From NCBI RefSeq assembly GCF_021545845.1, contig NZ_CP088923.1, positions 2,852,001-2,916,000 on the forward strand: DNA of 64,000 nucleotides, given 5' to 3'. The translations under genes and the position numbers were made by a program. This DNA is from Rhodanobacter thiooxydans. GTDB lineage: Bacteria > Pseudomonadota > Gammaproteobacteria > Xanthomonadales > Rhodanobacteraceae. Positions 1,316 to 46,409 of this stretch are shown here, one piece after another. Positions within the stretch are counted from its first letter, which is position 1. Each line of letters opens with the position of its first letter. The notes under the pieces were generated by a model that saw only the letters and a list, made by a program, of their open reading frames with translations, had not been told where the DNA came from and made no database searches.

Positions 1316-3307
1316 ATGAGGATGCAGCGCTGGATCGTTGCGGGTCTGCTCTTGCTGTCTACTGCCGTGCTGCAGGCACAGCCGGTCTCCTATGCCGAGC
1401 TGGCGCGACATGCCCAGTACAAGGACGTGAAAATCTCGCCGGACGGCAAGTACCTGGCCGCCACCGCAGTGGTGAACGGGCAGACCGTGCTGGCCCTGAT
1501 CCGGGTGTCCGATCACCAGGGCAACCTGGTTCGCCCGCGGCAGGAGGACGACGTGATCGCTTTCTGGTGGGCGTCCGCTACCCGCGTGCTGTATTCCGTG
1601 GGCGAACGTGTCGGCGGTTACGATGCGCCGTTTGCCACCGGCGAACTATTCGCGGTCAACGCCGACGGCAATGGCGCGAACATGCTGTACGGCTACCGCC
1701 GCAGTGGCATGAGCACCGGCTCGCACATCCAGCGGGCGACGGCCGAATATGGCAGTGCCGAACTGATCGCCACCATCCCGGACGATCCCAAGCATGTGCT
1801 GGTATCCATCAGTTCGTGGTCGGGAGCCGGGCTCGAGGGCGCCATCCCCGTGGCCTACCGCATGGACGTGCGCAACGGCAACAAGACACAACTCATCGTT
1901 GCCCCCATGCGTGGCGCAAGCTTCGTCGCCGACCACCAGGGGCGGATCCGCTTCGCGGCTGGTTTTGACAATGACGGCAACGTCAGGGTCTACCAGCATC
2001 CGATCGATGGTGATGGCTGGCAGCTGCTGCCGGAAGCAAGCAGGAACCGCGCGATACCGATCGAATTCAACCGCGATGACAGCGGGGCGTATTTCACCTG
2101 TTCGGCCCCCGCCGCCTTCGGCGTTTGCCGCTGGGATCCGGCAAAGCAGTCGCTCAGCGTCGTGTGGAGCAATCCACACGTCGAAGCAACCCGGATACTG
2201 CAGGGCCTGGCCGACGACAGCATCCTCGGCGTGGGCTTCACGGACGGTCGTAGCGGCGCGGCGTTGTTCGACCCGCAGTCACTCGCTGCGCAGACCCTGC
2301 TGGCGCTGATGAAGCAGTTCCCTGGCGAGAACGTCCGCTTCGTCTCCGGCACGCGCGACGGCAGCCTGAGCGTGGTGCTGGTCGAGGCTGATGCCGATCC
2401 CGGCACGTTCCTGCTGTACGACGCCAAGGCCAACAGGCTCACGCCGCTGCTGGCCCGGGCCTCGTGGATCGACCCTGCCCGGATGGCCACCATGCAGCCG
2501 CTCGACTTCGCGGCACGCGACGGCATGCAGTTGCACGGCTACGTGAGCTATCCGCCCGGCAAGGAAAGCGCCAGGCACCTGCCGATGGTGGTGCTGGTGC
2601 ATGGCGGCCCGTTCGGCATCCGCGACCATTGGGAATACCAGCCGGACGTGCAGGCGCTGGCCACCCGTGGCTACGTCGTGCTGCAGGTGAACTACCGCGG
2701 TTCCGGTGGCTACGGCTACGACTACGAACGCGCCGGCTGGAGGGAGTGGGGCGGCAAGATGCAGGACGACGTCACCGACGCCACCCGTTGGGCCATCGCG
2801 CAAGGCCTCGCCGACCCGCAGCGCATCTGCATCTACGGCGCCAGCTATGGCGGTTATGCGGCACTCGAAGGGGCGGTGAAGGAACCGGACCTGTACAAGT
2901 GCGCGATCGGCTACGTGGGCGTCTACGACCTGCCCCTGATGCACCGCCGCGGCGACATCCCGCAATCGAGCTACGGCGAGGCTTATCTCAAGCGTCAGCT
3001 GGGCGACGACATGAACGTGCTGGCTACCCATTCGCCGATCAACCAGCTCGACCGGCTCAAGGCGCGCGTAATGCTGGTGGCCGGCGGCGAGGACAAGCGC
3101 GTGCCGCCCGTCCAGGGCCTCAGCCTGCACCAGGCGCTGGCGAAACGGAACATCGCGCACGAGTGGCTGTACAAGCCCAACGAGATGCACGGCTTCTACA
3201 ACGAAGCCAACCAGGCCGAACTGTATGCAAAGCTTGTGCAGTTCATCGGCTCCAGCATCGGCCCCGGCGTCACGGCGACAGGGAGCGGCAATACCGCCAC
3301 CCACTGA
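1316..3307 (+). CDS. S9 family prolyl oligopeptidase-like serine peptidase
   Basis: Exported alpha/beta-hydrolase peptidase of 663 residues. Residues 1-22 form a signal peptide (charged start, Leu-rich core, LQAQ cleavage region). A beta-propeller-like domain covers roughly residues 25-390, and the hydrolase domain the remainder. The triad is visible as Ser510 in GASYGGY, Asp593 in GGEDKRVP and His625 in EMHGFYN, in the order and spacing of dipeptidyl/acylaminoacyl peptidases. AGGGGAAA lies just before the ATG and supports this start. It probably cleaves peptides in the periplasm. The next gene is also a peptidase, but a 187-bp gap with a strong hairpin argues for separate transcripts. Confidence 0.93.
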   Translation: MRMQRWIVAGLLLLSTAVLQAQPVSYAELARHAQYKDVKISPDGKYLAATAVVNGQTVLALIRVSDHQGNLVRPRQEDDVIAFWWASATRVLYSVGERVGGYDAPFATGELFAVNADGNGANMLYGYRRSGMSTGSHIQRATAEYGSAELIATIPDDPKHVLVSISSWSGAGLEGAIPVAYRMDVRNGNKTQLIVAPMRGASFVADHQGRIRFAAGFDNDGNVRVYQHPIDGDGWQLLPEASRNRAIPIEFNRDDSGAYFTCSAPAAFGVCRWDPAKQSLSVVWSNPHVEATRILQGLADDSILGVGFTDGRSGAALFDPQSLAAQTLLALMKQFPGENVRFVSGTRDGSLSVVLVEADADPGTFLLYDAKANRLTPLLARASWIDPARMATMQPLDFAARDGMQLHGYVSYPPGKESARHLPMVVLVHGGPFGIRDHWEYQPDVQALATRGYVVLQVNYRGSGGYGYDYERAGWREWGGKMQDDVTDATRWAIAQGLADPQRICIYGASYGGYAALEGAVKEPDLYKCAIGYVGVYDLPLMHRRGDIPQSSYGEAYLKRQLGDDMNVLATHSPINQLDRLKARVMLVAGGEDKRVPPVQGLSLHQALAKRNIAHEWLYKPNEMHGFYNEANQAELYAKLVQFIGSSIGPGVTATGSGNTATH

Positions 3308-3324
3308 CCCTCTGCGGGGACAGG

Positions 3325-3355
3325 CGCGCTCCTGCCCGGTTCCGGCAGGAGCGCG
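3325..3355 (+). terminator. Hairpin after the S9 peptidase gene
   Basis: A perfect 12-bp stem (3325-3336 with 3344-3355) and a 7-base loop lie 18 bases after the S9 stop. There is no T tract, so this is a terminator-like or mRNA-stabilising hairpin rather than a textbook intrinsic terminator. Confidence 0.5.
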
Positions 3356-3494
3356 TCGTCACAGCTCGCCCATGTGGCAACCGATCGCCGTGGCGGCACA
3401 GGATTGCCCTGCCCAACTGATGGGCTACGCGCAGCCACACCGTTCTGGCAGAGTGCGACGATCAGCCGCCACACGACTCCCGGGGAAACTCATC

Positions 3495-6242
3495 ATGCAC
3501 GCACCCGTCCGGCTCTTGCTCGCCGTCCTGCTGGCGTCAGGCACTTTCGGTGCGTTTGCGGCGACCGGATCCGACAGTTCAACGCCGTATGCTCGCGACC
3601 CGACCCAACCGGTCGACCAGGCCTATACCGACCAGATCCTGAAATTCACCACCGCCCCCTCATTCAACTCGCCGCTGACCGACTACCTGCCCGCCTCCAC
3701 CAGCGTGCCCACGCCGGACAAGGTGCTGGGCCGCATCGCCGGCGCGCCGGATTACCTGCCGCATGTGGCCGACGTCCATCGCTACTTCCGCGAACTGGCC
3801 GCGGCCAGCCCGCGGGTGAAGGTGTTCTCGATCGGCAAGAGCGAGGAAGGCCGCGAGATGATCGCGGTGGCGATCGCCGACGAAAACCTGCTGGCCGATC
3901 TCGACGCGAACAAGGCGCGCCTGGCCAAGCTGGCCGACCCGCGCCGCATCGGCATGGACGACGCCGTCGCCGACCAGTTGGTCGCGCAGTCCACGCCGGT
4001 CTACTACATCACCGGCGCCATCCACTCCACCGAGACCGGTTCGCCCACCGCGCTGATGGAGCTGGCCTATCGCCTGGCGGTGGACGAGGCGCCGTACATC
4101 CAGCGCATCCGCTCGCACGTGATCACCCTGATCACCCCGGTGGTGGAGGTCGACGGCCGCGACCGCATGGTCGACCTGTACAACTGGCACCTGGCGCACC
4201 CAGGCCAGAACTACCCGCGGCTGCTGTACTGGGGCCACTACGTGGCGCACGACAACAACCGCGACGCGATGGGCATGTCGCTGAACCTCACCCGCAACGT
4301 GGCCGACACCTTCGTCGGCTGGCACGCGCAGGTGCTGCACGACCTGCACGAATCGGTGCCGTTCCTGTACGACAACACCGTGGGCGACGGCCCGTACAAC
4401 GCCTGGATCGACCCGATCCTCGCCGGCGAGTGGCAGCAGCTGGGCTGGGACAATGTGCAGCAGATGACCAGGCTCGGCATGCCGGGCGTGTTCGCCCACG
4501 GCGGCTTCGACACCTGGAGCCCCGGCTACCTGATGTTCATCGCCGCCATGCACAACGGCATCAGCCGCCTGTACGAGACCTACGGCAACGCCGGCGCCGA
4601 CACCGTGCAGCGCATCCTCGAACCGGAGGAATACCAGCGCACCTGGTACCGCCCGAACCCGCCGCTGCCGACCGTGCTGTGGTCACAGCGCAACAACAAC
4701 AACTACCAGCAGACCGGCCTGCTCACCGCGTTGAACTACTTCGCCGGCAACGGCCAGCAGTTCCTGAAGAACTTCTACCTGAAGGCCAAGCGCTCGATCG
4801 AGAAGCCGCAGCAGGCCGGCCCGGCCGCCTACGTGTTCCCGGCCGGCGACAAGCGCAGCGGCTCGCGCGCCCAGCTGCTGCGCATCCTGCAGCTGCAGCA
4901 CGCGGAGATCAGCCGCACCAGCGCACCGGTCACGGTGACCCTGCCGAAGCAGGACGACGACAGGAAGAAAGCAAAGACGCGGACCTTCCCTGCCGGCAGC
5001 TACGTGGTGCGCATGGACCAGCCGTACTCGCGCATCGCCGACACCTTGCTCGACCGCCAGTACTGGTCGCCAAAGGACCCACAGCAGCACCCCTACGACG
5101 ACACCGGCTGGTCGATGGGTGACCTGTTCGACGTGCAGGTGGTGCGCGTCACCGACACCGCGATCCTGAAGGCGCCGATGCGCCTGCTCGACGTGCCGGT
5201 CACCGTACCGCAGGGCCTGGCCGCGCTCGACATGCCGTCGGCGAAGCTGCCGCGCATCGCGCTGATGCACACCTGGCTGAGCACCCAGACCGAAGGCTGG
5301 TGGCGCATGGCGCTGGACAAGCTCGGGGTGCCGTACGACTACATCAGCACCCAGGACGTGGCCAAGGCTGGCGACCTGCGCGCGAAATACGACGTGATCC
5401 TGTTCGCCCCGGTCGGCGATACCAGCACGCAGCGCATCGTCGACGGCCTGCCGATGTGGGGCGAACCGCTGCCGTGGAAAACCACCGCGCTGACGCCGAA
5501 CCTCGGCCACATCGACGCGACCGACGACATCCGCCCCGGCCTCGGCGAGAGCGGCATCGCCCACCTCAAGCGCTTCGTGCAGGCCGGCGGCCTGCTGGTC
5601 ACCGCCGAGGACACCGCAAAGTTCGCCATCGACGAGGGCCTGGCGCCGGGCGTCTTCGTCACGAAAACCGAGAAGCTGAAAGTGGTCGGCAGCGTGCTGC
5701 AGGCGAAGTTCGTCGACCGCGGCAGCCCGATTGCCGCCGGCTACGACAGCGACGAGCTGGCGCTGTACAGCGCGGCGGGCCAGTCGTTCAAGGTGTCCAA
5801 CCTGGTCACCGGCGACCACGGGCTGCCGACCGCGAAGGAATTCCAGCGCCCGACCGGACGCGGCGGCCCGCACGACACGGACACCCCCGAAGGTCGCACC
5901 TCGACCGCCCCGGCCGCCCTGCCCGACGTCAAGCCGTGGCAACCGCTGCCGCTCAACGCCGAGCAGATGCGCAACAACCCGTGGGTGATTCCCGCCGAGC
6001 AGCGCCCGCGCGTGATCCTGCGCTACGCCGAGGCGAAGAACCTGCTGATCTCCGGCCTGCTCGACGGCGGCGACGAGATGGCCGAGCGTGCCGCCGTGGT
6101 CGACGCCCGCTACGGCAAGGGCCACGTGCTGCTGTTCGCCGGCAACCCGATCTGGCGCGGCGAAACCATCGGCAGCTACCCGCTGGTGCTCAACGCCATC
6201 GTCAACTTCAACCGGCTGGATACGCCACCGGCGAAACCCTGA
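3495..6242 (+). CDS. M14 family zinc carboxypeptidase-like protein, exported
   Basis: Protein of 915 residues starting at the ATG preceded by CGGGGAAA. An in-frame extension upstream exists but lacks the signal peptide, which begins MHAPVRLLLAVLLAS and ends near AFAA. The M14 zinc motif His177-Ser-Thr-Glu180 is clear, with a third ligand likely in HDLHE (His282 or His285). NLTRNVAD is in the place of the substrate-binding Asn-Arg pair. The remaining 550 residues include a glutamine-amidotransferase-like region seen in large bacterial M14 proteins, where the sequence reads as intact. It is predicted to act in the periplasm on peptide C-termini. The exact substrate is not readable. Confidence 0.88.
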   Translation: MHAPVRLLLAVLLASGTFGAFAATGSDSSTPYARDPTQPVDQAYTDQILKFTTAPSFNSPLTDYLPASTSVPTPDKVLGRIAGAPDYLPHVADVHRYFRELAAASPRVKVFSIGKSEEGREMIAVAIADENLLADLDANKARLAKLADPRRIGMDDAVADQLVAQSTPVYYITGAIHSTETGSPTALMELAYRLAVDEAPYIQRIRSHVITLITPVVEVDGRDRMVDLYNWHLAHPGQNYPRLLYWGHYVAHDNNRDAMGMSLNLTRNVADTFVGWHAQVLHDLHESVPFLYDNTVGDGPYNAWIDPILAGEWQQLGWDNVQQMTRLGMPGVFAHGGFDTWSPGYLMFIAAMHNGISRLYETYGNAGADTVQRILEPEEYQRTWYRPNPPLPTVLWSQRNNNNYQQTGLLTALNYFAGNGQQFLKNFYLKAKRSIEKPQQAGPAAYVFPAGDKRSGSRAQLLRILQLQHAEISRTSAPVTVTLPKQDDDRKKAKTRTFPAGSYVVRMDQPYSRIADTLLDRQYWSPKDPQQHPYDDTGWSMGDLFDVQVVRVTDTAILKAPMRLLDVPVTVPQGLAALDMPSAKLPRIALMHTWLSTQTEGWWRMALDKLGVPYDYISTQDVAKAGDLRAKYDVILFAPVGDTSTQRIVDGLPMWGEPLPWKTTALTPNLGHIDATDDIRPGLGESGIAHLKRFVQAGGLLVTAEDTAKFAIDEGLAPGVFVTKTEKLKVVGSVLQAKFVDRGSPIAAGYDSDELALYSAAGQSFKVSNLVTGDHGLPTAKEFQRPTGRGGPHDTDTPEGRTSTAPAALPDVKPWQPLPLNAEQMRNNPWVIPAEQRPRVILRYAEAKNLLISGLLDGGDEMAERAAVVDARYGKGHVLLFAGNPIWRGETIGSYPLVLNAIVNFNRLDTPPAKP

Positions 6243-6263: not shown

Positions 6264-7958
6264 TCACTTCGACGTCGATGGCGCCGCCGGCGATGCCGGC
6301 GGTTTCATCATGGCGTCGCGCTTGTCCTTGAACGGATTGCCGGCGTACCACTGCGGCCACACGCCGGCATGGCTGAGGTATTGCCCCAACTCGTACAGCG
6401 CCTGGGTGTCCTGGAGGATGCCTTCCAGGTTCCAGTGCGGATCGAACACGTCGTTCGTCGTGTGGTAGCGGTGTGCGGTGTAGTCCTCGGCCGCCTTCTG
6501 GCCGGCAGCGCGGCCGCCCTCGATCAGATCCAGGCCCGAACTGGCCAGCAGCGCCGGCACGCCGGCCCGCGCGAAGTTGAAATGGTCGGAGCGGAAGTAG
6601 AAGCCGTTTTCCGGCGTGGTCTCCGGCGAAATCACCCGGCCCTGCTTGCGCAGCACGCCGGCGAGCATGTCCTCCAGCTCGGACTGGCCCTTGCCGATCA
6701 CCGTCATGTCATGCGCGGGGCCGATCATCGGCAACGCGTCGACGGCGATGTCGGCCACCGTGCGGTTCAACGGGAACACCGGCTTGGCCGCGTAGTACTG
6801 CGAACCGAGCAGGCCCGATTCCTCCAGCGTCGGCATGAAGAACAGCACGCTGCGCTCAGGCGGCTTTGCCTGGTGTGCGAACGCGCCGGCGATCTGCAGC
6901 AGCATGCTCAGGCCGGTGCCGTTGTCGACGGCGCCGGCATAGACCTGGTGACCCTTGCGGCTGTGGTCGGTGCCCAGATGGTCCCAGTGCGCGGTGTAGA
7001 CCACCACCTCGTCGGGCTTGTAGCTGCCCTCGACCATCGCCAGCACATTCTTCGATTCGATGTGGCCGATCTTGTTGTGCAGGGTGATCGAGGCGGTCGC
7101 GTGCAACGGCACCGGCTCGAAGCCGGGCTTCGCCGCGGCCCGTTCGAGTTCGGCGAAATCGAGGCCCGCGGCGGCGAACAGCCGGGTGGCTGCGTCGCGC
7201 GTCAGCCAGCCGGCCACCGGCAGCCGCGGGGACGGATCGACGTTGGCCGGCAGGCTCAGCTGCGGACCGACCGCGCCGTTCTGCAGCACGCTCCACGGAT
7301 AACCGGCCGCGGCGTCGCTGGTGTGCACGATGAAGCAGGCGGCGGCGCCCTGCAGCGCGGCCTGCGCGTATTTGTACGGCCAGCGGCCGTACCAGGTCAT
7401 CGCGCGGCCGTTGAACAGCTTCAGATCGCGGCTGGCGAAGCCGGGATCGTTGACCAGCACGATCACCGTCTTGCCTTTCACGTCGACGTCCCGGTAGTCG
7501 TTCCAGTGCCAGGCGGGCGCATCCGCGCCGTAGCCGAGGAACACCACCGGCGAATCCTTCAGCGCAACCTCGGCTTTCGCCTGCAGGGTCTGCGCCACCA
7601 TGTCGGTGCGGTACGCCAGCTTCAGCGGCTTGCCGCGCGCGGTGACGTCCAGGCTGACATCGGTATTCAGCAGCAAGGTGGAGTCGGCCGGCACGGTCTG
7701 GAACCACGAACCGTGGTTGCCCGGCTGCAGCCCCATCCGCTTGAACTCGGCCACCAGGAAATCGGTGGTGCGCTGCGCGCCGATGGTGCCGGGCTTGCGC
7801 CCGCCGAACGCATCGGAGCTGAGCGTCTGGTCGAAGCGGACGAAATCGGCGGCGTTGATCGATGGCGCCCGCGTCGTGTCGGCTTCGGCGGCGGCCGCCT
7901 GCAGCGGCAACACGGCCAGGCCCAGTGCGACCAGCAGGACGGAACTCCTCACACGCAT
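6264..7958 (-). CDS. M28 family zinc aminopeptidase, exported
   Basis: Protein of 564 residues. I chose the ATG at 7958, preceded by GGGAG, because it puts a clean signal peptide (MRVRSSVLLVALGLAV, cleavage near AAAA) at the N-terminus; the frame is open for 25 more codons upstream. Zinc-site motifs are His324-Trp-Asp326-His, the bridging Asp in YAGAVDNGTG, the catalytic Glu-Glu of TLEESGLLGS and the final His of FRSDHFNFARAG. A protease-associated domain is probably inserted around residues 130-280. It converges on the M14 gene with 21 bases between the stops. Likely a periplasmic aminopeptidase. Confidence 0.92.
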   Translation of the reverse strand: MRVRSSVLLVALGLAVLPLQAAAAEADTTRAPSINAADFVRFDQTLSSDAFGGRKPGTIGAQRTTDFLVAEFKRMGLQPGNHGSWFQTVPADSTLLLNTDVSLDVTARGKPLKLAYRTDMVAQTLQAKAEVALKDSPVVFLGYGADAPAWHWNDYRDVDVKGKTVIVLVNDPGFASRDLKLFNGRAMTWYGRWPYKYAQAALQGAAACFIVHTSDAAAGYPWSVLQNGAVGPQLSLPANVDPSPRLPVAGWLTRDAATRLFAAAGLDFAELERAAAKPGFEPVPLHATASITLHNKIGHIESKNVLAMVEGSYKPDEVVVYTAHWDHLGTDHSRKGHQVYAGAVDNGTGLSMLLQIAGAFAHQAKPPERSVLFFMPTLEESGLLGSQYYAAKPVFPLNRTVADIAVDALPMIGPAHDMTVIGKGQSELEDMLAGVLRKQGRVISPETTPENGFYFRSDHFNFARAGVPALLASSGLDLIEGGRAAGQKAAEDYTAHRYHTTNDVFDPHWNLEGILQDTQALYELGQYLSHAGVWPQWYAGNPFKDKRDAMMKPPASPAAPSTSK

Positions 7959-8080
7959 CGAAACACTCCCGGCAATGGCATCGACGACCTTTGTAGCGCG
8001 CACCTGCACGGCTGTCCATGCGAGCTGCCGCAATCGCCGGCTGCAGCGGCACCTGCAAGCCAGGCCCTACCGCGCGGCCC

Positions 8081-9880
8081 TCAGCTGCCCATGCCGACCT
8101 CGTAAACCCTGATCCGATTGCGTCCCTCGTGCTTGGCCCGGTACATGGCGCGGTCGGCATCGATCATCAGCTGCCGCAGCTCGTAGCCGCTGCTGGCTGC
8201 GGCAGCGATGCCGAAGCTGGCCGAGATCGGAATGGCCGGCGCATCCCCGGCGCTGGAGGCGGCGGCGATGGCCGTACGCATCTGCTCGACCCTTGGCAGC
8301 ACGCTGTCCAGCGTGCACTCGGGCAACAGCACGCCGAACTCCTCCCCGCCGAGACGACCGAACACGTCGGTAGAGCGCAGATGCGCCTGGCAGGCATCGA
8401 CCGCACGCTTCAGCACCCGGTCGCCTACTGCATGCCCATGCGTGTCGTTGACCAGCTTGAAGTGGTCCAGGTCGATCAGCACCAGGCAGACGTCGCGCGC
8501 CGATTTGCGGCAGTAACGCAACTGCCGCTCGGCTTCGTTGACGAAGTGCTGCCGATTGAAGATGCCAGTGAGGCCGTCGCGCCGCGCCAGCCGCATGAAA
8601 CGCAATTGCGAACGCTTGACCCGATAGGCCCACAGTGCGATGGACGCCAGTACCAGCAGCAGCAGCGCGATATACAGCCGGCTGGTTTCTGCCGCCTTGC
8701 GATCCAGCTCGTCCTGCAGGGTAAGAATCCTGTTCTTCTTGTCGAGCCCCTCGATCTGCAGTTTCTTTGCCAGTACCTGCTGTTTGACGGTCTGGTACGC
8801 CAGTGCCTTCGCGCTCACATCATCCAGATAACCCTTGTCGGCGACCATGTAGCCTTTGAGATAGGCCAAAGCTTCGCCCAAGTCGCCTTGCTTCTCCTCA
8901 ACCTGGTACAAAACCCGATAGGCAGAGGCAGTCGATGCGGAATATACGCCTCCGATGCTTTTGTTTTTCTCGACAACACGAAGTGCATGTATTTTTGCCA
9001 GTCCGGCATCGCCACGTTTCCAGTAAGCCTGTGCCAGCAAATCGTCAAAATCGGAAACAAGCGGCGGGTAGCGCTTGCGCTGAACATCCGCATAATTTTC
9101 CTGCAGCAGGCTGATGGCTTCGGCGGATCGCCCCCGCTCAATTTCCAACTTTGCGACGACTGTCTTGAACATGCCGGCAATCAGGATATTGCCGGCCCGG
9201 TCACAGGCTTCCCTTCCGTTGCGGATTTTTTCCTCGACGATCTGCCATCGCCCCGCCCGAAGAAGTGCATCGAGCTTGTAGTACCAACCGATGCAGGCAC
9301 TCTTGGGGCTCTCGGCTCCTTTGATCAATTGCTCCGCATAGTCGATCGCCAAGTCGTATTGGCCCGCTTCGAGGTACAACTGCGAAGCAACGCCAAGGGC
9401 TTGTATGCGGACTCGTCCTTCAGTTACTCGTGGAAGCTCTTCCAGAAGGAGGCTCAACCGTGCAAATGCCTCCTCGTATCGGGATTGCGTCACCAGGAGG
9501 TCTACCGTTGTCGCAGCGGCGCGAAACGACAGGGTTGGATCTTCCGACTGATCCGCGATCGCCTTCATCAAGGGAAGTGCCGTCTTGAAGTCCCCGCGAA
9601 AGACAATCTGTCGCGCATCGAGATAGCGTCGGTGCAATTGCTGCTGTGGGGAAAGCCTCAACTTGCTGTCATCGAGTCGTTGCATCAATGCGTTGAACTC
9701 ATCGATGTTATTCGACTCGGCGCCATCAGCCAGTTTGAGAAGTTGTGCAGGGTCCTGGGGCAAAGAGGCGTGCTGCGGCTCGGCCGCAATAACCGCGCCG
9801 GCACGCGCAAGCAACCATATTGCCCATACGGCGAGGAGCAGACAGCGCCTTGCTCCCTGTCGAAACATTTGTCTGATCAC
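8081..9880 (-). CDS. TPR-sensor diguanylate cyclase 1 (GGDEF)
   Basis: Membrane protein of 599 residues. The start is a GTG at 9880 with a weak AGGCG; an ATG four codons later (9868) is an alternative and keeps the signal peptide. Order: signal peptide to about residue 32, a helical TPR-like region to about 395, one transmembrane helix near 403-421 (IALLLLVLASIALWAY), then a GGDEF domain. The active site is GGEEF at 511-515, with RSTD five residues before it, the usual inhibitory I-site. The topology puts the TPR part in the periplasm and c-di-GMP synthesis in the cytoplasm. The gene follows a small precursor-like peptide gene by 31 bases, and the same arrangement recurs at 10441-12552. Confidence 0.9.
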   Translation of the reverse strand: MIRQMFRQGARRCLLLAVWAIWLLARAGAVIAAEPQHASLPQDPAQLLKLADGAESNNIDEFNALMQRLDDSKLRLSPQQQLHRRYLDARQIVFRGDFKTALPLMKAIADQSEDPTLSFRAAATTVDLLVTQSRYEEAFARLSLLLEELPRVTEGRVRIQALGVASQLYLEAGQYDLAIDYAEQLIKGAESPKSACIGWYYKLDALLRAGRWQIVEEKIRNGREACDRAGNILIAGMFKTVVAKLEIERGRSAEAISLLQENYADVQRKRYPPLVSDFDDLLAQAYWKRGDAGLAKIHALRVVEKNKSIGGVYSASTASAYRVLYQVEEKQGDLGEALAYLKGYMVADKGYLDDVSAKALAYQTVKQQVLAKKLQIEGLDKKNRILTLQDELDRKAAETSRLYIALLLLVLASIALWAYRVKRSQLRFMRLARRDGLTGIFNRQHFVNEAERQLRYCRKSARDVCLVLIDLDHFKLVNDTHGHAVGDRVLKRAVDACQAHLRSTDVFGRLGGEEFGVLLPECTLDSVLPRVEQMRTAIAAASSAGDAPAIPISASFGIAAAASSGYELRQLMIDADRAMYRAKHEGRNRIRVYEVGMGS

Positions 9881-9911
9881 CCACGCCTAACGGCAACCCG
9901 AGTTATACGGG

Positions 9912-10220
9912 TCATTTTCTGGGCCTCCTTGATGGTTTTTCCTTCACCCTGCCCTTGCCGTCCTCGTCTTTATCGTCCTTGTCATCCTTATCGTCTTTAT
10001 CATCCTCGTCCTCATCTTCCTTGCCTGGATTGATATAACAGCAGAAAGCCCCTTTCCCCAGTTTGGTCGCAAGGCTTTGGCCATCCCCGGCAAGGATCGC
10101 CACGCGCAACTCCGGATCAACCTCGGGACCGGACAGCACAAGCCCCACATCATCCCGAGATGCATGGCGCAGCCGCGCGTCCTGTCCCACCCGTTCCAGA
10201 AAATCGATCACATCGAACAT
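9912..10220 (-). CDS. Small borosin-precursor-like peptide 1 with acidic tail
   Basis: Protein of 102 residues with AGGGGG before the ATG. Residues 1-55 are a helical leader with FLERVGQDARL, AILAGD and a Leu/Gly turn. This pattern is shared with the two other small proteins here and resembles the leader (borosin binding domain) of split-borosin precursors such as Shewanella SonA. It is followed by FCCYINPG, a run of Asp/Glu/Lys encoded by 9-bp repeats, and a basic end (PSRRPRK). There is no signal peptide or transmembrane helix. It lies 31 bases upstream of a TPR-GGDEF gene. The leader pattern is seen; being a methylated precursor is inferred. A Nif11-like leader is the main alternative. Confidence 0.7.
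   Translation of the reverse strand: MFDVIDFLERVGQDARLRHASRDDVGLVLSGPEVDPELRVAILAGDGQSLATKLGKGAFCCYINPGKEDEDEDDKDDKDDKDDKDEDGKGRVKEKPSRRPRK
9966..10010 (-). repeat. Imperfect 9-bp tandem repeat encoding an Asp/Lys tail
   Basis: Five consecutive 9-bp units (GTCTTTATC, GTCCTTGTC, ATCCTTATC, GTCTTTATC, ATCCTCGTC on the plus strand) encode the KDD repeats of precursor-like peptide 1. Unit gain or loss would change tail length without shifting frame. Confidence 0.7.
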
Positions 10221-10440
10221 CGGTCATCCCCCTGTCAGGATGATTGCCGGCTATCTGGTGATGGCCGCATGAAATTCCTCTGCCGGCCTTCCCCCCGTTT
10301 CCCGCGCATTGCGCGCTGCAAGCTGCAAACCTGGCTGCCTGACGGGCCCAAAATACACCATTCCTTCGACGCCGTGCCATCGCATTGAGGTGCCTATCCT
10401 TGCCCCAGGCGGCAGGCGGAACGGCAGCCATCCGGCTCAG

Positions 10441-12249
10441 CTACTGCACGCCTTCGGTCGTCACGGCAACCGCGCCCAGTTGCGGTTTCGACCGGCCGTC
10501 GCTGACGCTGACCCGATTGCGGCCCTCGCGTTTGGCCCGATACAAGGCGTCGTCGGCGTGGATCAGCAGTTGGCGCAGGTCATGCCCGGAATGCTTGGTG
10601 GTCGCCACGCCAAAACTGGCCGAAACGCAGATTTCCTCGGCAGCATCGCCGCAGACCTCCACGATCGCCAAGCGGATCCGTTCGGTCCGGGCAAGCACCT
10701 GCTCGAGCGTGCACTCCGGCAACACGATGCCGAACTCCTCCCCGCCCAGGCGGCCGAAGATGTCGGTGGAACGCAGATGCGCCTGGCAGGCGGCCACGGC
10801 ACGCTTCAGCACGCGATCACCCACCGCATGTCCGTAAGTGTCGTTGACGGCCTTGAAGTGGTCCAGGTCGATCAGCACCAGGCAGGCTTCCCGCCCCGAC
10901 TTCCGGCAGTACTGCAACTGCTGCTCGGCCTCGTTGATGAAATGCTGCCGGTTGAAGATATCCGTGAGCCCGTCGCGCCGCGCCTGGCGCATGAAACGCA
11001 GTTGCGAGCGCTTGATGCGGTAGGCCCAGAAGCCGATAAAAGCCAGCACCGTAAGCAACAGCAATATGTATAGACGACTCGTTTCGGAAGCTTTTTTGTC
11101 GAGGTTTCGCTGGAGCTGCAGGATTTGGTTCTGCTTGCTCAATGTGTCTAACTGCAGTTTTTTGGCGAGAAGTTGTTGCTGGACGATCTGAAAAGCGAGT
11201 GCCCTGGCCCCCACTTCATCCAGCCAACCATTGTTTGACGCCATATAGCGCTCGTGATGGTCAAGAGCGGCCCGCAGGTCTCCCTGACTTTTCGCAATAA
11301 GATAGAGAACGCGCTCGGCAGTACTCAAGGATTCCGAATATTTGTTCCCACCACTTCGAGCAACCACTTGGAGTGCCGATTGCTTCGATAAGGCAATCTG
11401 GCCGGTACGCAAGTATGCCTCGGCCAATAGCGCATCAACCTGCGAGAGCAACCACGAGTAGCCACTTCTCTCCACTGCATCGTAACTGCTCTTCAGTAGT
11501 GTAATTGCCTCTTCTGAATGCCCCCGCCCCAATGCAACTCTCGCCAGGTACAGGCGAACGCCATTGGCATAAAGTTCGTCGCCCACCTTCTCGCACAGAT
11601 CTATGCCTTTTTGAAACTTCTCGTTAATTCCGTCCAGCTTGCCTGCCTTGTAGAGCGCCACCAGTCTTGCGTAGCCCGTTTTGCATATCCAATCGTTCGG
11701 CTGCTGGGTTTCATTGGCAAGCTGGTCAGCATAATTCCAGGCAAGGTCGTACTGCCCAGACTCCTCGTAGAGGAGCGTAGCGACGGTGAGCGCTAGGGCA
11801 CGAGCATCCGGGTCAGAAATCGTATGCAGCCGCGATAGCAGCAAATTCAAGCGTCGGAACGCATCCTCGTAACGGGAACGCTCCGCAAGAGAGTTCACCA
11901 CGAGGGAGTCTGCCTTAAAGCGTAAAACCGAATCCCGCGAATGATTCAACACGGTATCAGCCAACCGATCCGATGTTGCGTAATCGCCGACGTAAGCTGC
12001 CTGCCATGCTTGAAGGTAATGCAGATATTCCTGTTGCGCGGGCGGCAACTTCGCAGCCTGTTTGTCGAGATGCTGCAAGAGCTCCAGGAATCTGTCGTAG
12101 TTCTGTGTTCTGCTGCTATCGGCCTCCTTCAGCAGGGAGGCGCTCTGGTCAATAGTCGGGAGCACAGCCGCATGGGCAGTACTCCCGGATAATCCGAGCA
12201 ATATCCACCCCGCGATCACCATCCGGCGATTCACTACGGATGCGGGCAT
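10441..12249 (-). CDS. TPR-sensor diguanylate cyclase 2 (GGDEF)
   Basis: Paralogue of the protein at 8081-9880, 602 residues. Signal peptide to about residue 27 (VIAGWILLGLSGSTAHA), helical TPR-like region to about 385, transmembrane helix 394-412, GGDEF domain after that. GGEEF is at 502-506 and the I-site RSTD precedes it by five residues, so an active, product-inhibited cyclase is expected. The ATG at 12249 lies 12 bases after the stop of precursor-like peptide 2, with no strong Shine-Dalgarno, which suggests translational coupling. The cytoplasmic halves of the two cyclases are nearly the same, while the TPR halves differ much more. The TPR-coding part is visibly AT-richer than its neighbours. 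Confidence 0.9.
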   Translation of the reverse strand: MPASVVNRRMVIAGWILLGLSGSTAHAAVLPTIDQSASLLKEADSSRTQNYDRFLELLQHLDKQAAKLPPAQQEYLHYLQAWQAAYVGDYATSDRLADTVLNHSRDSVLRFKADSLVVNSLAERSRYEDAFRRLNLLLSRLHTISDPDARALALTVATLLYEESGQYDLAWNYADQLANETQQPNDWICKTGYARLVALYKAGKLDGINEKFQKGIDLCEKVGDELYANGVRLYLARVALGRGHSEEAITLLKSSYDAVERSGYSWLLSQVDALLAEAYLRTGQIALSKQSALQVVARSGGNKYSESLSTAERVLYLIAKSQGDLRAALDHHERYMASNNGWLDEVGARALAFQIVQQQLLAKKLQLDTLSKQNQILQLQRNLDKKASETSRLYILLLLTVLAFIGFWAYRIKRSQLRFMRQARRDGLTDIFNRQHFINEAEQQLQYCRKSGREACLVLIDLDHFKAVNDTYGHAVGDRVLKRAVAACQAHLRSTDIFGRLGGEEFGIVLPECTLEQVLARTERIRLAIVEVCGDAAEEICVSASFGVATTKHSGHDLRQLLIHADDALYRAKREGRNRVSVSDGRSKPQLGAVAVTTEGVQ

Positions 12250-12261
12250 TGACTTAGCCGG

Positions 12262-12552
12262 TCAACTCCACGCACTCGACGCGGAGCGGCTTGTTTCGTC
12301 CTCGCGCTCTGGAGTTTCGTCGCCGCCTTCATCCTCCTGCTCTTCCTGCTCCTCGCCGGGCGCAAGCATCGCGCAATGTGTCGCAATGCCGAGCAATGCC
12401 TTCAATGTCGATGAATCCTCTGAGAGGATCGCATCCTGCAAAGTCAAATCCAGCCCCGTGCTCGCCATCACATGCTCAAGCTCATTGACCGATGCTCGGC
12501 TCAACTGTGCGTCCCGCCCCATCCGTTCAAGAAACTCGACAACGTCCGACAT
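12262..12552 (-). CDS. Small borosin-precursor-like peptide 2
   Basis: Protein of 96 residues. The ATG at 12552 is chosen over one two codons upstream because GGGGGG sits seven bases before it and because the paralogues also begin M-(S/F)-(D/N). The leader has FLERMGRDAQL, a Leu-rich second helix, AILSED and ALLG, aligning without gaps to the other two peptides. The core region reads HCAMLAPG, followed by a Glu/Asp-rich tail and a Ser-rich end. Only one Cys is present here, at the position conserved in all three (C-x4-P). It ends 12 bases before the start of the second TPR-GGDEF gene. No export signal is visible. Function as a peptide substrate is inferred. Confidence 0.7.
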   Translation of the reverse strand: MSDVVEFLERMGRDAQLSRASVNELEHVMASTGLDLTLQDAILSEDSSTLKALLGIATHCAMLAPGEEQEEQEDEGGDETPEREDETSRSASSAWS

Positions 12553-12602
12553 ATGCATTCCCCCCGACTGTTGTTGGCTTGGTCAACGTCTTGGGGAACG
12601 CT

Positions 12603-12631
12603 GCCTCGCTGGCGCTATGCGCCAGCGAGGC
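12603..12631 (-). other. Stable hairpin between the first two precursor-like peptide genes
   Basis: Perfect 12-bp stem (12603-12614 with 12620-12631), extendable by one C-G pair, with a 3-5 base loop, in the 88-base gap between peptide 3 and peptide 2. No T tract follows on the minus strand. It may be a partial terminator or an RNA-protecting structure that raises the amount of the first peptide message over the cyclase message. Confidence 0.6.
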
Positions 12632-12640
12632 CATTCCCAT

Positions 12641-12907
12641 TCAAGCACGCTGTTCGTGGCAGTACTCGTCTTCATCGTTGATACCGGGAACAAGCCAACA
12701 CCGTACCTGCGCAGGAACTAGCAAGCAGCATACATTCTGTGCCCCCACCAGCGCAGTCAGTCGTTCCTGGTCCTTGGCCAGCACAGCCTCCTTGATATCC
12801 TGATCGAACTGGCTATGGGCCAGCATGCGCTGCATGTCCCCTGCGGAAGCATAGCGCAAGCTGGCGTTCTGACCGACGTTCTCAAGAAAATCGACGATAT
12901 TCGACAT
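12641..12907 (-). CDS. Small borosin-precursor-like peptide 3, two core-like repeats
   Basis: Protein of 88 residues, first of the three small peptides after the methyltransferase; GGGAG lies seven bases before the ATG. The leader (FLENVGQNASL, AVLAKD, ALVG) matches the other two. The tail differs: CCLLVPAQ is followed at once by RCWLVPGI, so a Cys-x-Leu-Val-Pro unit occurs twice, and the acidic tail is short and ends with another Cys. Two core-like units in one precursor are a feature of several RiPP families. It has no cyclase of its own directly behind it; the next gene is peptide 2. The leader similarity is strong; being a modified peptide is inferred. Confidence 0.7.
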   Translation of the reverse strand: MSNIVDFLENVGQNASLRYASAGDMQRMLAHSQFDQDIKEAVLAKDQERLTALVGAQNVCCLLVPAQVRCWLVPGINDEDEYCHEQRA

Positions 12908-13048
12908 GGCGTATCTCCCGGATAGTCAATGGATTGGAATGACGCGGCTGGCCTGATTCGCAGGGGTGGAATGGTTTGCCCCGCAGTGAGGCTTCAAACC
13001 GCGCCGATTCATCCTAGGGACGACGCCAACGGCAACTTGCCTACTTGC

Positions 13049-13870
13049 TCACAAAACGCCAGCATCCTGCTTGATTTCCGCCTTGTCCAGCGCGTCCAGC
13101 CGTGCGCGCATCGCCAGGTCAGGCTGCAGCGGGCCGGTCGGCGGCAGCACCACGGTGTCTTCCATGCCTACCTCGGCTTGCGGCAGGTCGCCCAGCCGGA
13201 TCCGGCGAATCCGCGGCTGCTGGATCGGCAAGGTGGCGCCGCGGTAGATGATGATCTCGTGGTCCTGCGGGTAGTCGCGCGCCAGCACCTCGACCAGCAG
13301 TTCGCGGTAGGCCGGCCCGGTAGAGAAGCGCGCCAACGACTGGTCACCAACCAGACCCACCTGCCACAGCACCAGGTAGGCGGTCGGGTCGATCCGGCGC
13401 CGGTAGAACAGCAGCTGGCTGGCCTCGAAGTGCTGGCAGCCGTAGCGGCCGGGGTCGATGCCGAGGTCGGCGTACAGGCAGTCCTCGGCCGAGATGCCCG
13501 GTTCCATGTGCGCCGCGTAGCCCTCGCTGCGGGCCACCTCGATCGACTTGTGCGGTGCCCAGGCGAACACGCCGGGATGGCCGTAGAACACCCCGCACAC
13601 CCGCTTGCCCGCGCGCACCTCGGTGAGGATCGCCTCGACCATCTCGCGGTAGGTCTGCATGCGCGACTTCCCTTCGCGGTAGTACGGCTGCAGGCTGCGC
13701 ACGTCCGGGTGCATCTTGTGCAGCCACATCTCGACGATGCCGTCGGAGAGCCCGGCGAACACCACGTCCGCCTGTTCGATATGGCTGCGCGCCAGCGGGC
13801 CGAGGTGCGAACCCAGGGTCATGCCCAGGCCAACGCAGACCAGGCTTCCGGGTGAACTTGCTGCATCCAT
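13049..13870 (-). CDS. Borosin-type peptide alpha-N-methyltransferase (tetrapyrrole-methylase fold)
   Basis: Enzyme of 273 residues with the tetrapyrrole (SAM-dependent) methylase fold: VCVGLGMTLGSH near the N-terminus and FYGHPGVFAW at 95-104. Instead of cobalamin or siroheme enzyme features it has YYREGKSRMQTYREM at 63-77. This matches the active-site helix of borosin alpha-N-methyltransferases (omphalotin OphMA, Shewanella SonM), where Tyr, Arg and Tyr are catalytic; here Tyr64, Arg70, Tyr74 and Tyr96. The first Tyr of that set is Gln61. It lacks a fused precursor tail, as in split systems, and three precursor-like genes follow on the same strand. The ATG at 13870 is the only start that fits the fold. 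No cobalamin genes are nearby. Substrate assignment is inferred from fold plus context. Confidence 0.8.
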   Translation of the reverse strand: MDAASSPGSLVCVGLGMTLGSHLGPLARSHIEQADVVFAGLSDGIVEMWLHKMHPDVRSLQPYYREGKSRMQTYREMVEAILTEVRAGKRVCGVFYGHPGVFAWAPHKSIEVARSEGYAAHMEPGISAEDCLYADLGIDPGRYGCQHFEASQLLFYRRRIDPTAYLVLWQVGLVGDQSLARFSTGPAYRELLVEVLARDYPQDHEIIIYRGATLPIQQPRIRRIRLGDLPQAEVGMEDTVVLPPTGPLQPDLAMRARLDALDKAEIKQDAGVL

Positions 13871-13935
13871 GGTGGCGCACCGTCTTGGCAGTGGGATGGC
13901 GGCATTATTCGCACGCCCGCGACGGCGGCGCCAGT

Positions 13936-14706
13936 TCAGCGCTCCACGGGCGGCTTCGCCGGCAGCGCCTCCAGCAACGGCTTGATCAGGTCCAGCGGCA
14001 GCGGGAACACCACGGTGGAGGACTTGCCGCTGTTGGACATGTCGGCCAGCGTCTGCAGGTAGCGCAGCTGCAGCGCCTGCGGCTGCTGCGACAGCAGCGC
14101 GGCGGCGTCGCGCAGCTTCTCGGCGGCCTGCAGCTCGCCGTCGGCGTGGATCACCTTGGCGCGGCGTTCGCGCTCGGCCTCGGCCTGGCGGGCGATCGCG
14201 CGCACCATGGTCTCGTTGAGGTCGACGTCCTTGAGCTCCACGTTGGCGACCTTGATGCCCCACGGGTCGGTGGCCTCGTCCAGGATTGCCTGCAGGGTGT
14301 GGTTGATCGAATCTCGCTGCGACAGGATCTCGTCCAGCTCGTGCTGGCCGAGCACCGAGCGCAGCCGGGTCTGCGCCAGCTGGCTGGTCGCCTGCAGGAA
14401 GTTCTCCACCTGCAATACGGATTTGTCGGGCTCGACCACGCGGAAGTAGACCACCGCGTTCACCCGCACCGAGACGTTGTCGCGCGAGATCACGTCCTGC
14501 GGCGGTACGTCCATCACGGTCACGCGCAGATCGACCCGGATCATCCGCTGCACGAACGGCACCAGCAGCACCAGTCCGGGGCCCTTGGTGCCGGTGTAGC
14601 GGCCCAGGGTCAGCACGACGCCACGCTGGTACTCCGGCAGGATCTTCACCGCGGAGAACAGCAGCAGCATGCCGAGGATTACCAGAACGCCGACGAATCC
14701 GAACAT
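13936..14706 (-). CDS. Slipin / SPFH (band 7) membrane protein
   Basis: Protein of 256 residues. The second of two ATGs (14706) has GGGAG at a proper distance. One N-terminal transmembrane helix ([16 protein letters not shown]) is followed by the SPFH domain with [26 protein letters not shown] and [12 protein letters not shown]. An Ala/Glu-rich coiled coil ([12 protein letters not shown]) and a hydrophobic C-terminal oligomerisation stretch complete it. Slipins form membrane microdomain scaffolds and are cleaved by the partner NfeD protease in archaeal examples. The nfeD gene is directly upstream, 16 bases away, so the two form an operon. The 65-base gap to the methyltransferase gene leaves open whether transcription continues into the peptide locus. 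Confidence 0.92.
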
Positions 14707-18936: not shown

Positions 18937-19698
18937 TCAGGCCTTCAGGCGGTAGCCGCTGCGGAAGATCCACCACACTGCGGCCAGGCAGATCGCGAGG
19001 AACACCGCGGTCATCCCCACGCTGACGCCCATGCCGACGTCGGACACGCCGTAGAAGCTCCAGCGGAAGCCGCTGATCAGGTACACCACCGGATTGAACA
19101 GGGTGACCTTCTGCCAGAACGGCGGCAGCATGTGGATCGAGTAGAAGCTGCCGCCGAGGAAGGTCAGCGGCGTCACCACCAGCAGCGGCACCAGCTGCAG
19201 CTTCTCGAAGTTGTCCGCCCAGATGCCGATGATGAATCCGAACAGGCTGAAGGTGACCGCAGTGAGCAGCAGGAACGCCAGCATCCACAGCGGATGCTCG
19301 ATGCCGAACGGCACGAACAGCCGCGCGGTGGCCAGGATGATCAGGCCCAGAATGATCGACTTGCTCGCCGCCGCGCCGACGTAGCCGGCCACGATTTCGA
19401 ACGGCGACACCGGCGCCGACAGGATCTCGTAGATGGTGCCCACGAACTTCGGGAAGTAGATGCCGAACGAGGCGTTGGAGATGCTCTGCGTGAGCAGCGA
19501 CAGCATGATCAGCCCCGGCACGATGAAGGCGCCGTAGCTGACCCCGTCGATGCCGTTCATGTGCGAGCCGATCGCCGCGCCGAACACCACGAAGTACAGC
19601 GAGGTGGAGATCACCGGCGAGACGATGCTCTGCAGCAGGGTGCGCCCGGTGCGCGCCATCTCGAAGCGGTAGATCGCGCGGATCGCGTAAAGATTCAT
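18937..19698 (-). CDS. ABC-2 type transporter permease
   Basis: Integral membrane protein of 253 residues with six predicted helices, of the ABC-2 exporter family (YadH-like). Marks include [31 protein letters not shown] and [12 protein letters not shown]. Its ATG overlaps the stop of the ATPase gene (ATGA at 19695-19698), so the two are translated together. The exported substrate is not known; close relatives such as E. coli YadGH are also uncharacterised. Confidence 0.9.
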
Positions 19699-20621
19699 GC
19701 GCGTTCCCTCAGCAGGCCGACGAAGATGTCCTCCAGCGAACTCTGCCGGGTCTGCAGGTCCTTGAAGTCGATGCCCGCCTCGCCGAGCCGGCGCAGCAGC
19801 ACGTCGATGCCGGTGTGCTCGCCCTGCGCGTCGAACGTATAGACCAGTTGCCGGCAGTCGGCCGACAGCTGCAGCGGGTAGCCGGCCAGCGCCGCGGGGA
19901 TGGCTTCCAGCGGATTCTGCAGGTGCAGGGTCAGCTGCTTGCGGCCGAGCTTCTCCATCAGCTCGGCCTTGTCCTCGACCAGGATCAGCTCGCCCTTGTG
20001 GATCACCCCGATGCGGTCGGCCATTTCCTCGGCCTCCTCGATGTAGTGGGTGGTCAGGATGATGGTGACGCCGGTGTCGCGCAGCGCGCGCACCATCGCC
20101 CACATGTCGCGACGCAATTCCACGTCGACGCCTGCGGTGGGCTCATCGAGGAACAGGATCTGCGGCTCGTGCGACAGCGCCTTGGCGATCATCACGCGCC
20201 GCTTCATGCCGCCGGACAGGGTGATCAGCTTGTTGTTGCGCTTGTCCCACAGCGAGAGGTCCTTCAGCACTTTCTCGATGTGCGCCGGGTTGGCGGCGCG
20301 ACCGAACAGGCCGCGACTGAAGCTGACCGTGTTCCACACCGTCTCGAACGCGTCGGTGGTCAGCTCCTGCGGCACCAGGCCGATCTTCGCGCGCGCCGCG
20401 CGATAGTCGCGCACCACATCGTGGCCGTCGGCCAGCACGCTGCCCTCGCTGGGCTTGACGATGCCGCAGATGATGCTGATCAGGGTGGTCTTGCCGGCGC
20501 CGTTGGGGCCAAGCAGGGCGAAGATTTCGCCGCGACGGATCTCCAGGTCGATCCGCTTCAGCGCCTGGAAGCCGGAGGCGTAGGTCTTGCCGAGCTGGCG
20601 AACGATGATGATCGGCGGCAT
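19695..20621 (-). CDS. ABC transporter ATP-binding protein (YadG-like)
   Basis: Cytoplasmic ATPase of 308 residues; AGGAG precedes the ATG at 20621. Walker A is GPNGAGKT, the signature LSGGMKRR, Walker [10 protein letters not shown] and the switch His TTHYIEE, all in the right order. The last 80 residues are the accessory domain found in ABC-2 exporters. With the overlapping permease gene it forms a two-gene exporter. It is divergent from the antiporter gene at 20752 with 130 bases between the starts. Confidence 0.93.
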
Positions 20622-45986: not shown

Positions 45987-46120
45987 GCGGCGCGCCTTGA
46001 CGTTGGGAAGGCGCCAACATACCGAAAAGCGCACGCCGCATCTATGCGCCGCGCCATGCGGCGCCCCGCCGCTACCCCCAAATGCCCGGTTGGACCCACA
46101 CTGATCCGCGAAGACCCCAA

Positions 46121-46342
46121 CTAATTGACATCCACGCCGAGGAACCCACCATCATCGAAGTGCACCCGAAAGTTCTCCTTGTTACAACCTGTCATCTCAT
46201 GACAGTGAGGACACTGCGCTCGGTTCGCAAAAAGTATTGAGGTGTCGAACGACTCGCTGTCGCCAAAGAAGATAGGAGACGGAAACCACTGGTGACAATG
46301 CTCGCAGCGAATCTCGATGCTCTTCGTCTTGGACATTTGCAT
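46121..46342 (-). CDS. Cassette-borne small zinc-ribbon protein
   Basis: Protein of 73 residues with two Cys pairs (CEHCHQW and CPHCHEM) likely to hold zinc. The family is not recognised. The gene is AT-richer than its surroundings. It starts 10 bases after the core site GTTAGAC at the end of the attC at 46352-46409, which is the normal layout of an integron gene cassette. An ATG two codons further in is an alternative start. No clear attC follows its stop. Confidence 0.7.
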   Translation of the reverse strand: MQMSKTKSIEIRCEHCHQWFPSPIFFGDSESFDTSILFANRAQCPHCHEMTGCNKENFRVHFDDGGFLGVDVN

Positions 46343-46351
46343 CCTTCTGCG

Positions 46352-46409
46352 GTCTAACGCTGGAATTGAGCGGCGGCGAAGCCGTCCGCCTCGAATGATT
46401 TGTTAGGAC
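46352..46409 (-). other. Integron attC recombination site
   Basis: 58 bp. On the minus strand it begins with a GTCCTAAC core, has a palindromic centre (GAGGCGGACGGC, TTC, GCCGCCGCTC) and ends GCGTTAGAC. Outer and inner arms pair imperfectly, as attC sites do. It abuts the stop of the 188-residue gene upstream. No integrase gene is present in the window, so this is a cassette cluster without intI (CALIN type). Confidence 0.8.

Follow-up and report, generated by a model that had tools for sequence, protein, structure and literature searches.

The stretch of DNA analyzed here (the window) comprises 64,000 nucleotides of Rhodanobacter thiooxydans (contig NZ_CP088923.1, positions 2,852,001 to 2,916,000). 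Between positions 8081 and 13870 its minus strand carries six genes that encode, in transcription order, a predicted borosin-type α-N-methyltransferase (MT), two precursor-like peptides (PepA and PepB), a TPR-containing putative diguanylate cyclase (DGC-B), a third peptide (PepC), and a second such cyclase (DGC-C), with PepB and DGC-B separated by 12 bp and PepC and DGC-C by 31 bp. An initial annotation had listed this order and these gaps, and had claimed a split-borosin enzyme, a leader shared by the peptides, and a sensor topology for the cyclases; the order and spacing are confirmed, and the three assignments are upheld by the analyses that follow. In the genome (4.2 Mb, two contigs), we found a single MT, two such sensors, and three peptides that carry a borosin-binding domain (BBD), all at this locus; the BBD profile used for this search (A3) itself includes PepA, PepB, and PepC, which it matched with E-values of 2.6e-23, 1.3e-28, and 3.5e-30, respectively.

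The closest match of the MT in a phmmer search was SonM (7ltc; E=4.6e-78), followed by the fungal OphM-type enzymes (E=2.6e-45 to 2.1e-51). Its identity to SonM is 50% over the SonM stretch used for the alignment, and residues 5-273 match PF00590 with an E-value of 1.3e-19. Y58, R67, Y71, and Y93 of SonM, among which R67 is presumably important for function, are all kept in the MT. The residues Y58, Y71, and Y93 belong to the SonM active site (PMC8429565). We rejected an assignment to the cobalamin or YabN-type tetrapyrrole methylases, as the NCBIfam scores lie well below their cut-offs (35 of 525 bits for YabN) and borosin structures match far better. The MT is thus a discrete enzyme of the SonM/OphM family with its active-site residues, as in type IV split borosins. 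Some homologs elsewhere are altered: the one at 9033-9947 of locus L114 has replacements at all four of these positions, neither a BBD nor a sensor was found near it, and it is possibly a pseudo-enzyme or has a new function; in genomes G151 (TGA), G124 (TAA), G193 (TAG), and G044 (TGA) the MT gene carries a single in-frame stop, and additional MT copies are present in G044 and G124.

A profile built from 32 of the peptides retrieved seven SonA sequences from the PDB as its top matches (E=3.5e-5 to 1.6e-4); SonA alone fell below an E-value of 0.1, the next match being unrelated (E=0.19), and PepA searched singly gave a weak match to SonA (E=0.077). The PepC model (mean pLDDT 70.5) consists of helices (4-13, 22-29, 36-44, and 47-53) as far as residue 53 and is unstructured beyond, with SonA as its best fold match in the PDB (TM-score 0.68 of the target, though with an E-value of 1.8). 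The BBD of SonA spans residues 1-53 (PMC8429565). With precursors that are separate from the enzyme and start with a BBD, the MT and its peptides are, by the features tested, predicted type IV split borosins. Short core-like stretches, e.g. CCYINPG, CAMLAPG, or CCLLVPA, stand behind the leader: PepC has FCCYINPG and PepA a doubled stretch (CCLLVPA..CWLVPG) with a short tail; behind the core, PepB and PepC each continue into an acidic tail. Of the 20 loci that contain both sensor-adjacent and other peptides, 19 show the higher acidity behind the leader in the adjacent ones (peptides lacking the anchor pattern were left out, and the sole exception, L215, looks like a mis-set anchor), which hints at two peptide classes; outside the host family, many sensor-adjacent peptides lack the long tail. 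Some loci also contain short tailless BBD peptides (core approximately MxxPQxxQ) between the MT and a tailed peptide-sensor pair, ten in L097, six in L103, and others in L099 and L100. Several copies in these arrays are near-identical, giving them the appearance of a peptide library or a recombining cassette.

Pfam identifies a GGDEF domain in DGC-B and in DGC-C along with TPR matches in both, that of DGC-B falling under the Pfam cut-off. The two proteins are 52% identical overall, and in each a hydrophobic segment at the N-terminus is followed by a TPR region, a single transmembrane helix, and a GGEEF motif with RxxD ahead of it. They carry the GG(D/E)EF active-site motif of diguanylate cyclases and should synthesize cyclic di-GMP (c-di-GMP). 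A hydropathy script applied to the collected sensors located an N-terminal hydrophobic segment in 204 of 225, another one separating TPR from GGDEF in 221 of 221, and none within the TPR region of any of the 225; GGEEF or GGDEF is found in 219/221 and RxxD in 124/221. Two cysteines of DGC-C, Cys196 and Cys226, which are 30 residues apart, are invariant in all 195 aligned paired sensors and are also kept in alignment A2 (90 sensors, down to 21% identity with the first); by eye, the pair seems to be missing from the kinase sensor of L115, which is outside both alignments. In the AlphaFold2 model of the DGC-C TPR domain (pLDDT 94.6, pTM 0.89) they are placed close to where one helix begins and the following one ends, a predicted arrangement such as a disulfide would need.

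Table 1 Features of the locus in the window.
Feature	Position	Strand	Evidence
MT, predicted split-borosin α-N-methyltransferase, SonM family, 273 aa	13049..13870	-	PF00590, SonM match, active-site residues
PepA, predicted BBD precursor, 88 aa, no cyclase adjoining	12641..12907	-	Sequence; profile A3
PepB, predicted BBD precursor, 98 aa, acidic tail, 12 bp upstream of DGC-B	12262..12558	-	Sequence; profile A3
DGC-B, 602 aa, predicted signal peptide/periplasmic TPR/transmembrane/GGDEF (GGEEF, RxxD)	10441..12249	-	Pfam and sequence
DGC-B TPR sensor domain	11074..12153	-	Sensor profile and alignment A2
DGC-B GGDEF domain, residues 424-579	10513..10980	-	PF00990, E=3.3e-44
PepC, predicted BBD precursor, 102 aa, long acidic tail; DGC-C follows after 31 bp	9912..10220	-	Sequence; profile A3; model
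DGC-C, 599 aa, GTG start, predicted signal peptide/periplasmic TPR/transmembrane/GGDEF (GGEEF, RxxD)	8081..9880	-	Pfam and sequence
DGC-C TPR sensor domain	8678..9757	-	Alignment A2; AlphaFold2 model
DGC-C transmembrane helix, approximately residues 402-419	8624..8677	-	Sequence
DGC-C GGDEF domain, residues 433-589	8114..8584	-	PF00990, E=6.3e-42

The initial annotation had made its proposal depend on linkage of the three families in other genomes, and this linkage is strongly present. Among 233 genomes of the host family, the MT was found in 162 and the sensor in 159, with both in 158, the MT only in 4, the sensor only in 1 (G081, 86% complete), and neither in 70 (Fisher p=2e-53, uncorrected for phylogeny). 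All four MT-only genomes belong to genus g5, where sensor and MT are fused in one protein that falls below the threshold of the sensor query from the window. We retrieved 80 neighborhoods of at most 20 kb, picked across genera from the listed MT matches; the MT and a sensor lie on the same strand in all 80, and a BBD peptide occurs in 79 (not in L101). Counted as unique sequences and including the window, 83 of the 83 MTs of these family loci are beside or fused to a sensor, and a BBD peptide stands directly upstream of 198 of 218 unique sensors. It also does so in 20 of the 24 fetched sensor loci with no MT in the stretch (not in L135, L152, L158, or L159); one of these 20 (L138) is from G081, in which no MT was found, and the remaining genomes carry an MT elsewhere. 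Peptide and sensor therefore look like a unit. The linkage counts rule out a chance neighborhood of MT, peptides, and sensors, and in a control with 27263 reversed open reading frames (ORFs) none of the four profiles (two for the BBD, one each for sensor and MT) produced a match at E≤0.01.

The linkage extends beyond the family. At the level of the order, 144 of the 299 sampled genomes have the MT. With an alignment of six MTs as the query, a scan of named genomes provided 79 loci from the best 80 of at least 577 matches, a non-random sample because the ranking favors query-like MTs; here the sensor is fused to or within 4.5 kb of 76 of 81 unique MTs, the other five being cut by contig ends, and a fusion to GGDEF is seen in 26 of the 81 (9 sequences of this set recur in the family sets). 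In seven Shewanella loci, strain MR-1 itself not being among them, a SonA-like peptide is followed by a sensor that starts no more than 15 bp after it or overlaps it (by the longest ORF), and in one of them (L224) the sensor is split over two ORFs. The module also occurs in Rheinheimera and, with the gene order peptide-sensor-MT, in Wenzhouxiangella. Nine order-level loci chosen by family rather than by context, two of which repeat named loci, all contain the sensor; the BBD was detected in seven, and in the other two a short ORF in the gap has a leader-like start and ends with VCMIEPDDDD or VCIVMPEDDE.

In a class-wide sample of 369 genomes the MT is present in 10. Eight of these MTs are outside the host family, and two of them (L113 and L115) are accompanied by a TPR sensor. 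The other six (L114 and L116-L120, the L117 stretch being only 7.7 kb long) have no sensor nearby and are 24-41% identical to SonM; being distant from SonM, they indicate that the module belongs to a SonM-like clade and not to all borosins. The sensor profile identified sensors in 3 of the 369 genomes, each with an MT (at most five candidates were scored per genome, and the L115 sensor was missed at the threshold used). As a separate observation, the distant MTs of L117-L119 have a small ORF upstream and transporter genes nearby (an MFS gene directly downstream of the MT in L117 and L118, and a POT/MFS gene 4 kb away in L119), which is perhaps the context of an exported borosin.

Two kinds of rearrangement bear on which part of the sensor goes with the peptide. 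In L113, a BBD peptide precedes a protein composed of a signal peptide, TPR, HisKA, HATPase, and receiver domain, with the MT and a TPR-GGDEF protein behind; in L115, the MT and a 67-aa BBD peptide (weak match to LigA, E=0.0044) precede a signal peptide-TPR-HisKA-HATPase-receivers-Hpt protein. As a histidine kinase thus replaces GGDEF behind the TPR in two lineages, the peptide goes with the TPR part and not with GGDEF alone. In Luteimonas, Thermomonas, Dokdonella, and Rubrivivax, signal peptide, TPR, transmembrane segment, GGDEF, and MT form one single protein. The GGDEF-MT fusion is found in 324 matching proteins, ruling out an assembly error, and both Pfam domains are present in 120 of the 120 matches listed.

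When paralogous pairs of one locus were compared (17 comparisons), TPR identity was lower than GGDEF identity in all 17 (medians 45 vs 77%) and core identity lower than leader identity in 16. In L212 and L229, which have two sensors each, the GGDEF domains are 91-94% and the TPR domains 30-31% identical, and one reading that we offer is that either the output was recently converted or the input was exchanged. The TPR is also less conserved than GGDEF between loci (53 vs 70%), so faster change of this domain is a general tendency that is sharper within loci.

Clustering of neighboring ORFs of at least 100 aa from 208 loci showed that, after sensor, MT, and BBD, the most widespread cluster is that of a LysR regulator, in 24 loci, ahead of a short-chain dehydrogenase in 16 and a GNAT acetyltransferase in 14. 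The GNAT gene, for which there is no counterpart in the window, is a genuine addition to the module: it is on the same strand and in or at most 92 bp from the module in these 14 of 208 loci (L215-L219, L221, L227, L229, L232, L046, L047, L205, L220, and L233, including Rheinheimera, Salinimonas, Neiella, Lysobacter, Arenimonas, and two of the genus of the window); L212 carries another one, and in L160 (1901-2734) acetyltransferase and BBD precursor form a single 277-aa reading frame. An MFS transporter cluster comprises 10 loci, in which the gene is 0.5-5.8 kb off and mostly on the opposite strand. We considered as module parts an ABC-2 permease (10 loci, 2.3-6.7 kb upstream; 18937-20103 in the window) and an M28 peptidase behind DGC-C (10 loci), and rejected both because nearly all of these loci are from Rhodanobacter, which we read as synteny of the genus. 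In the window, M14 and M28 family peptidase genes (3225-6242 and 6264-8033) lie beside the module; these clusters recur in 7 and 10 loci, respectively, almost exclusively of Rhodanobacter.

The closest known system is SonM-SonA of Shewanella oneidensis (PMC8429565), with which the window shares the active-site residues of the MT and precursors having a related helical BBD. The seven Shewanella loci with SonM-type genes have, as in the window, the TPR-GGDEF gene directly behind the SonA-like peptide. The window differs in its three precursors with differing cores, two acidic tails, and two sensor cyclases, the account in PMC8429565, as far as available to us, dealing with MT and precursor; according to the same source, no split-borosin pathway with its final product was available as of 2021. 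In a 2024 paper, the legend of figure 1, on borosin architectures, names a GGDEF domain and gives no function for it (PMC11395268), while bacterial borosin types V-X are credited elsewhere to Imani and Cho (PMC11285071). We guess that the GGDEF architecture in that legend may be the fused TPR-GGDEF-MT protein of Luteimonas and Rubrivivax; in the window, by contrast, MT and sensor are separate.

Receptors of the RRNPP family (Rap-Phr, NprR, AimR) are cytoplasmic and act on re-imported peptides. Here, the TPR is instead predicted, from hydropathy, to be periplasmic on a membrane-bound cyclase, and the peptide is a predicted precursor of a ribosomally synthesized and post-translationally modified peptide (RiPP) that starts with a BBD rather than with a secretion signal (by eye). 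In RcbA-RcbB of Vibrio vulnificus, a TPR domain represses a GGDEF cyclase until a co-encoded partner lifts the repression (PMC12282931); both systems have a TPR-GGDEF protein with a partner encoded alongside. RcbB, however, is predicted to be cytoplasmic and has a TPR protein for a partner, and the parts of that account available to us mention neither a methyltransferase nor a RiPP; the gene directly upstream of both window cyclases, and of most of the unique sensors counted above, encodes a BBD peptide and not a TPR protein. In the open-licence PMC literature we found neither borosins jointly with a diguanylate cyclase, nor a RiPP with diguanylate cyclase, methyltransferase, and precursor peptide, nor SO1480; a joint mention of borosin and GGDEF exists. 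The statement of the initial annotation that it knew of no described system of this form has to be restricted, given the published GGDEF legend (PMC11395268) and the similar cyclase beside SonM-type genes of Shewanella; within that limit, the reading as a peptide-receptor system is new to us.

From gene families, topology, conserved pairing, co-occurrence, fusion, and output swap, all obtained by computation, we infer for this organism methylation of the peptides, leader removal, export, and binding, with a sign of effect and an output phenotype that would follow. In the cytoplasm, the MT would bind each precursor at its BBD leader and, by homology to SonM/SonA, N-methylate amides in the backbone of the short core that follows. 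A protease would free the modified core, which would reach the periplasm and bind to the TPR superhelix of the sensor whose gene follows immediately downstream; passage could be aided by the membrane permeability that N-methylation favors (PMC8429565), so that a transporter may be unnecessary. Binding would be relayed through the long C-terminal helix and the transmembrane segment to GGDEF, altering c-di-GMP synthesis, and in the two lineages with the swapped output a sensor of this kind would drive a histidine kinase phosphorelay. One MT could serve several peptide-sensor pairs, probably including some elsewhere in the genome, with core and TPR of paralogous pairs diverging more than leader and GGDEF. 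In line with the ligand role inferred in the initial annotation, we consider it moderately probable that the locus is a compact peptide-receptor module in which every peptide serves its neighboring periplasmic TPR receptor as a cognate and probably methylated ligand, because of the tight pairing, its persistence without a nearby MT, the swap of the output domain, and the periplasmic location predicted for the TPR.

Several results weigh against this ligand-receptor interpretation. The precursors show no N-terminal signal peptide by eye, the BBD coming first, and neither a dedicated exporter nor a leader protease is conserved from genus to genus next to the module in the 208 clustered loci. A BBD was not detected by pattern search upstream of 20 of the 218 unique sensors (L115 and L227 among them do show one by eye), and the six distant MTs of the class-wide sample have no sensor. 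A partial Mantel analysis of distances (195 of 198 pairs, the others being left out for a missing GGDEF or a short core) revealed no specific co-evolution of core and TPR, with values of 0.06 for core vs TPR (controlling for GGDEF and leader) and 0.05 for core vs GGDEF (controlling for TPR and leader). The acidity of the peptide is uncorrelated with the charge of the TPR within the family (rho -0.05, n=123), with a rho of 0.48 (n=72, fused genus included) outside it. The TPR fold itself is generic, with APPBP2, APC/C, MalT, and LGN scoring like peptide receptors in fold comparisons. The GNAT enzyme, which may tailor the peptide further, is superfluous to a ligand model, and an MT fused at the cytoplasmic end makes action in the cytoplasm possible.

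This last point keeps alive a different explanation, to which we give a minor though appreciable probability: a complex of MT and BBD peptide acts on the linker or the GGDEF dimer of the cyclase, methylation is a switch or timer, and the TPR senses an unrelated envelope signal. In the Luteimonas-type fusions the MT is C-terminal to GGDEF and hence cytoplasmic, and the lack of a visible secretion signal and of a conserved exporter or protease agrees with such control. GGDEF cyclases dimerize. SonM is likewise active as a dimer (PMC8429565). Cytoplasmic control does not, however, sit easily with the histidine kinase that takes the place of GGDEF in two lineages while BBD peptide and MT are retained (L113 having a TPR-GGDEF protein besides), with the lower divergence of GGDEF than of TPR within loci, or with the peptide kept in most of the 24 sensor loci that have no MT in the stretch.

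It is rather unlikely, in our estimate, that the TPR-GGDEF protein senses the environment and that c-di-GMP controls the making or deployment of a borosin with a target elsewhere (antimicrobial action or metal handling). The arrays of tailless peptides ahead of one tailed peptide in L097 and L103 do resemble a product library, GNAT is a possible tailoring enzyme in or close to 14 modules, besides L212 and the BBD fusion of L160, and the more distant MTs of L117-L119 are near transporter genes without a sensor. Against this, there is mostly one peptide right before each sensor, even in MT-less stretches, no transporter beside the module is conserved across genera, and an Rfam search of 7500-14500 found no c-di-GMP riboswitch or any other family. 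A TPR scaffold that assembles the sensor with other envelope proteins, with the peptide as a minor modulator or partner, is very improbable: it has a precedent in the TPR-TPR contacts of RcbA-RcbB, where the TPR domain gates the cyclase through a co-encoded partner (PMC12282931), and Z-scores to scaffold TPRs such as LGN (18.6-20.1) are near those to peptide receptors, but it leaves unexplained both the neighbor that resembles a backbone-methyltransferase substrate and the co-occurrence.

Some further features of the window were recorded. A scan for promoters and terminators at the locus gave no signal above that of shuffled sequences. By eye, the gap between PepA and PepB (12559-12640) contains an inverted repeat with a stem of approximately 13 bp, a short loop, and no T run, which divides the cyclase-free PepA from the first peptide-cyclase pair. 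Farther away, a 188-aa ORF with no Pfam match (46410-46976) lies in a low-GC stretch (0.52 over 46001-47000), between a permease-like gene and a further GGDEF-like gene at 47290-48573 (by eye).

Returning to the ligand-receptor interpretation, we tentatively extend it, as a generalization that we hold possible with somewhat less than even confidence, to a widespread and so far unrecognized class of bacterial peptide signaling, in which N-methylated, membrane-permeable, protease-resistant ribosomal peptides are the dedicated ligands of periplasmic, disulfide-stabilized TPR receptors with exchangeable outputs (c-di-GMP or histidine kinase). If this is true, most SonM-type split borosins, including those of Shewanella, would function as signals and not as antibiotics, with N-methylation standing in for a dedicated exporter. 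It would also give a function to a large group of RiPPs, propose a class of ligands for a family of sensor cyclases, and define a signaling logic of one modifying enzyme, several peptide-receptor pairs, and swappable outputs. The SonM-like clade is tied so tightly to one receptor family that the question of the ligand becomes directly testable.

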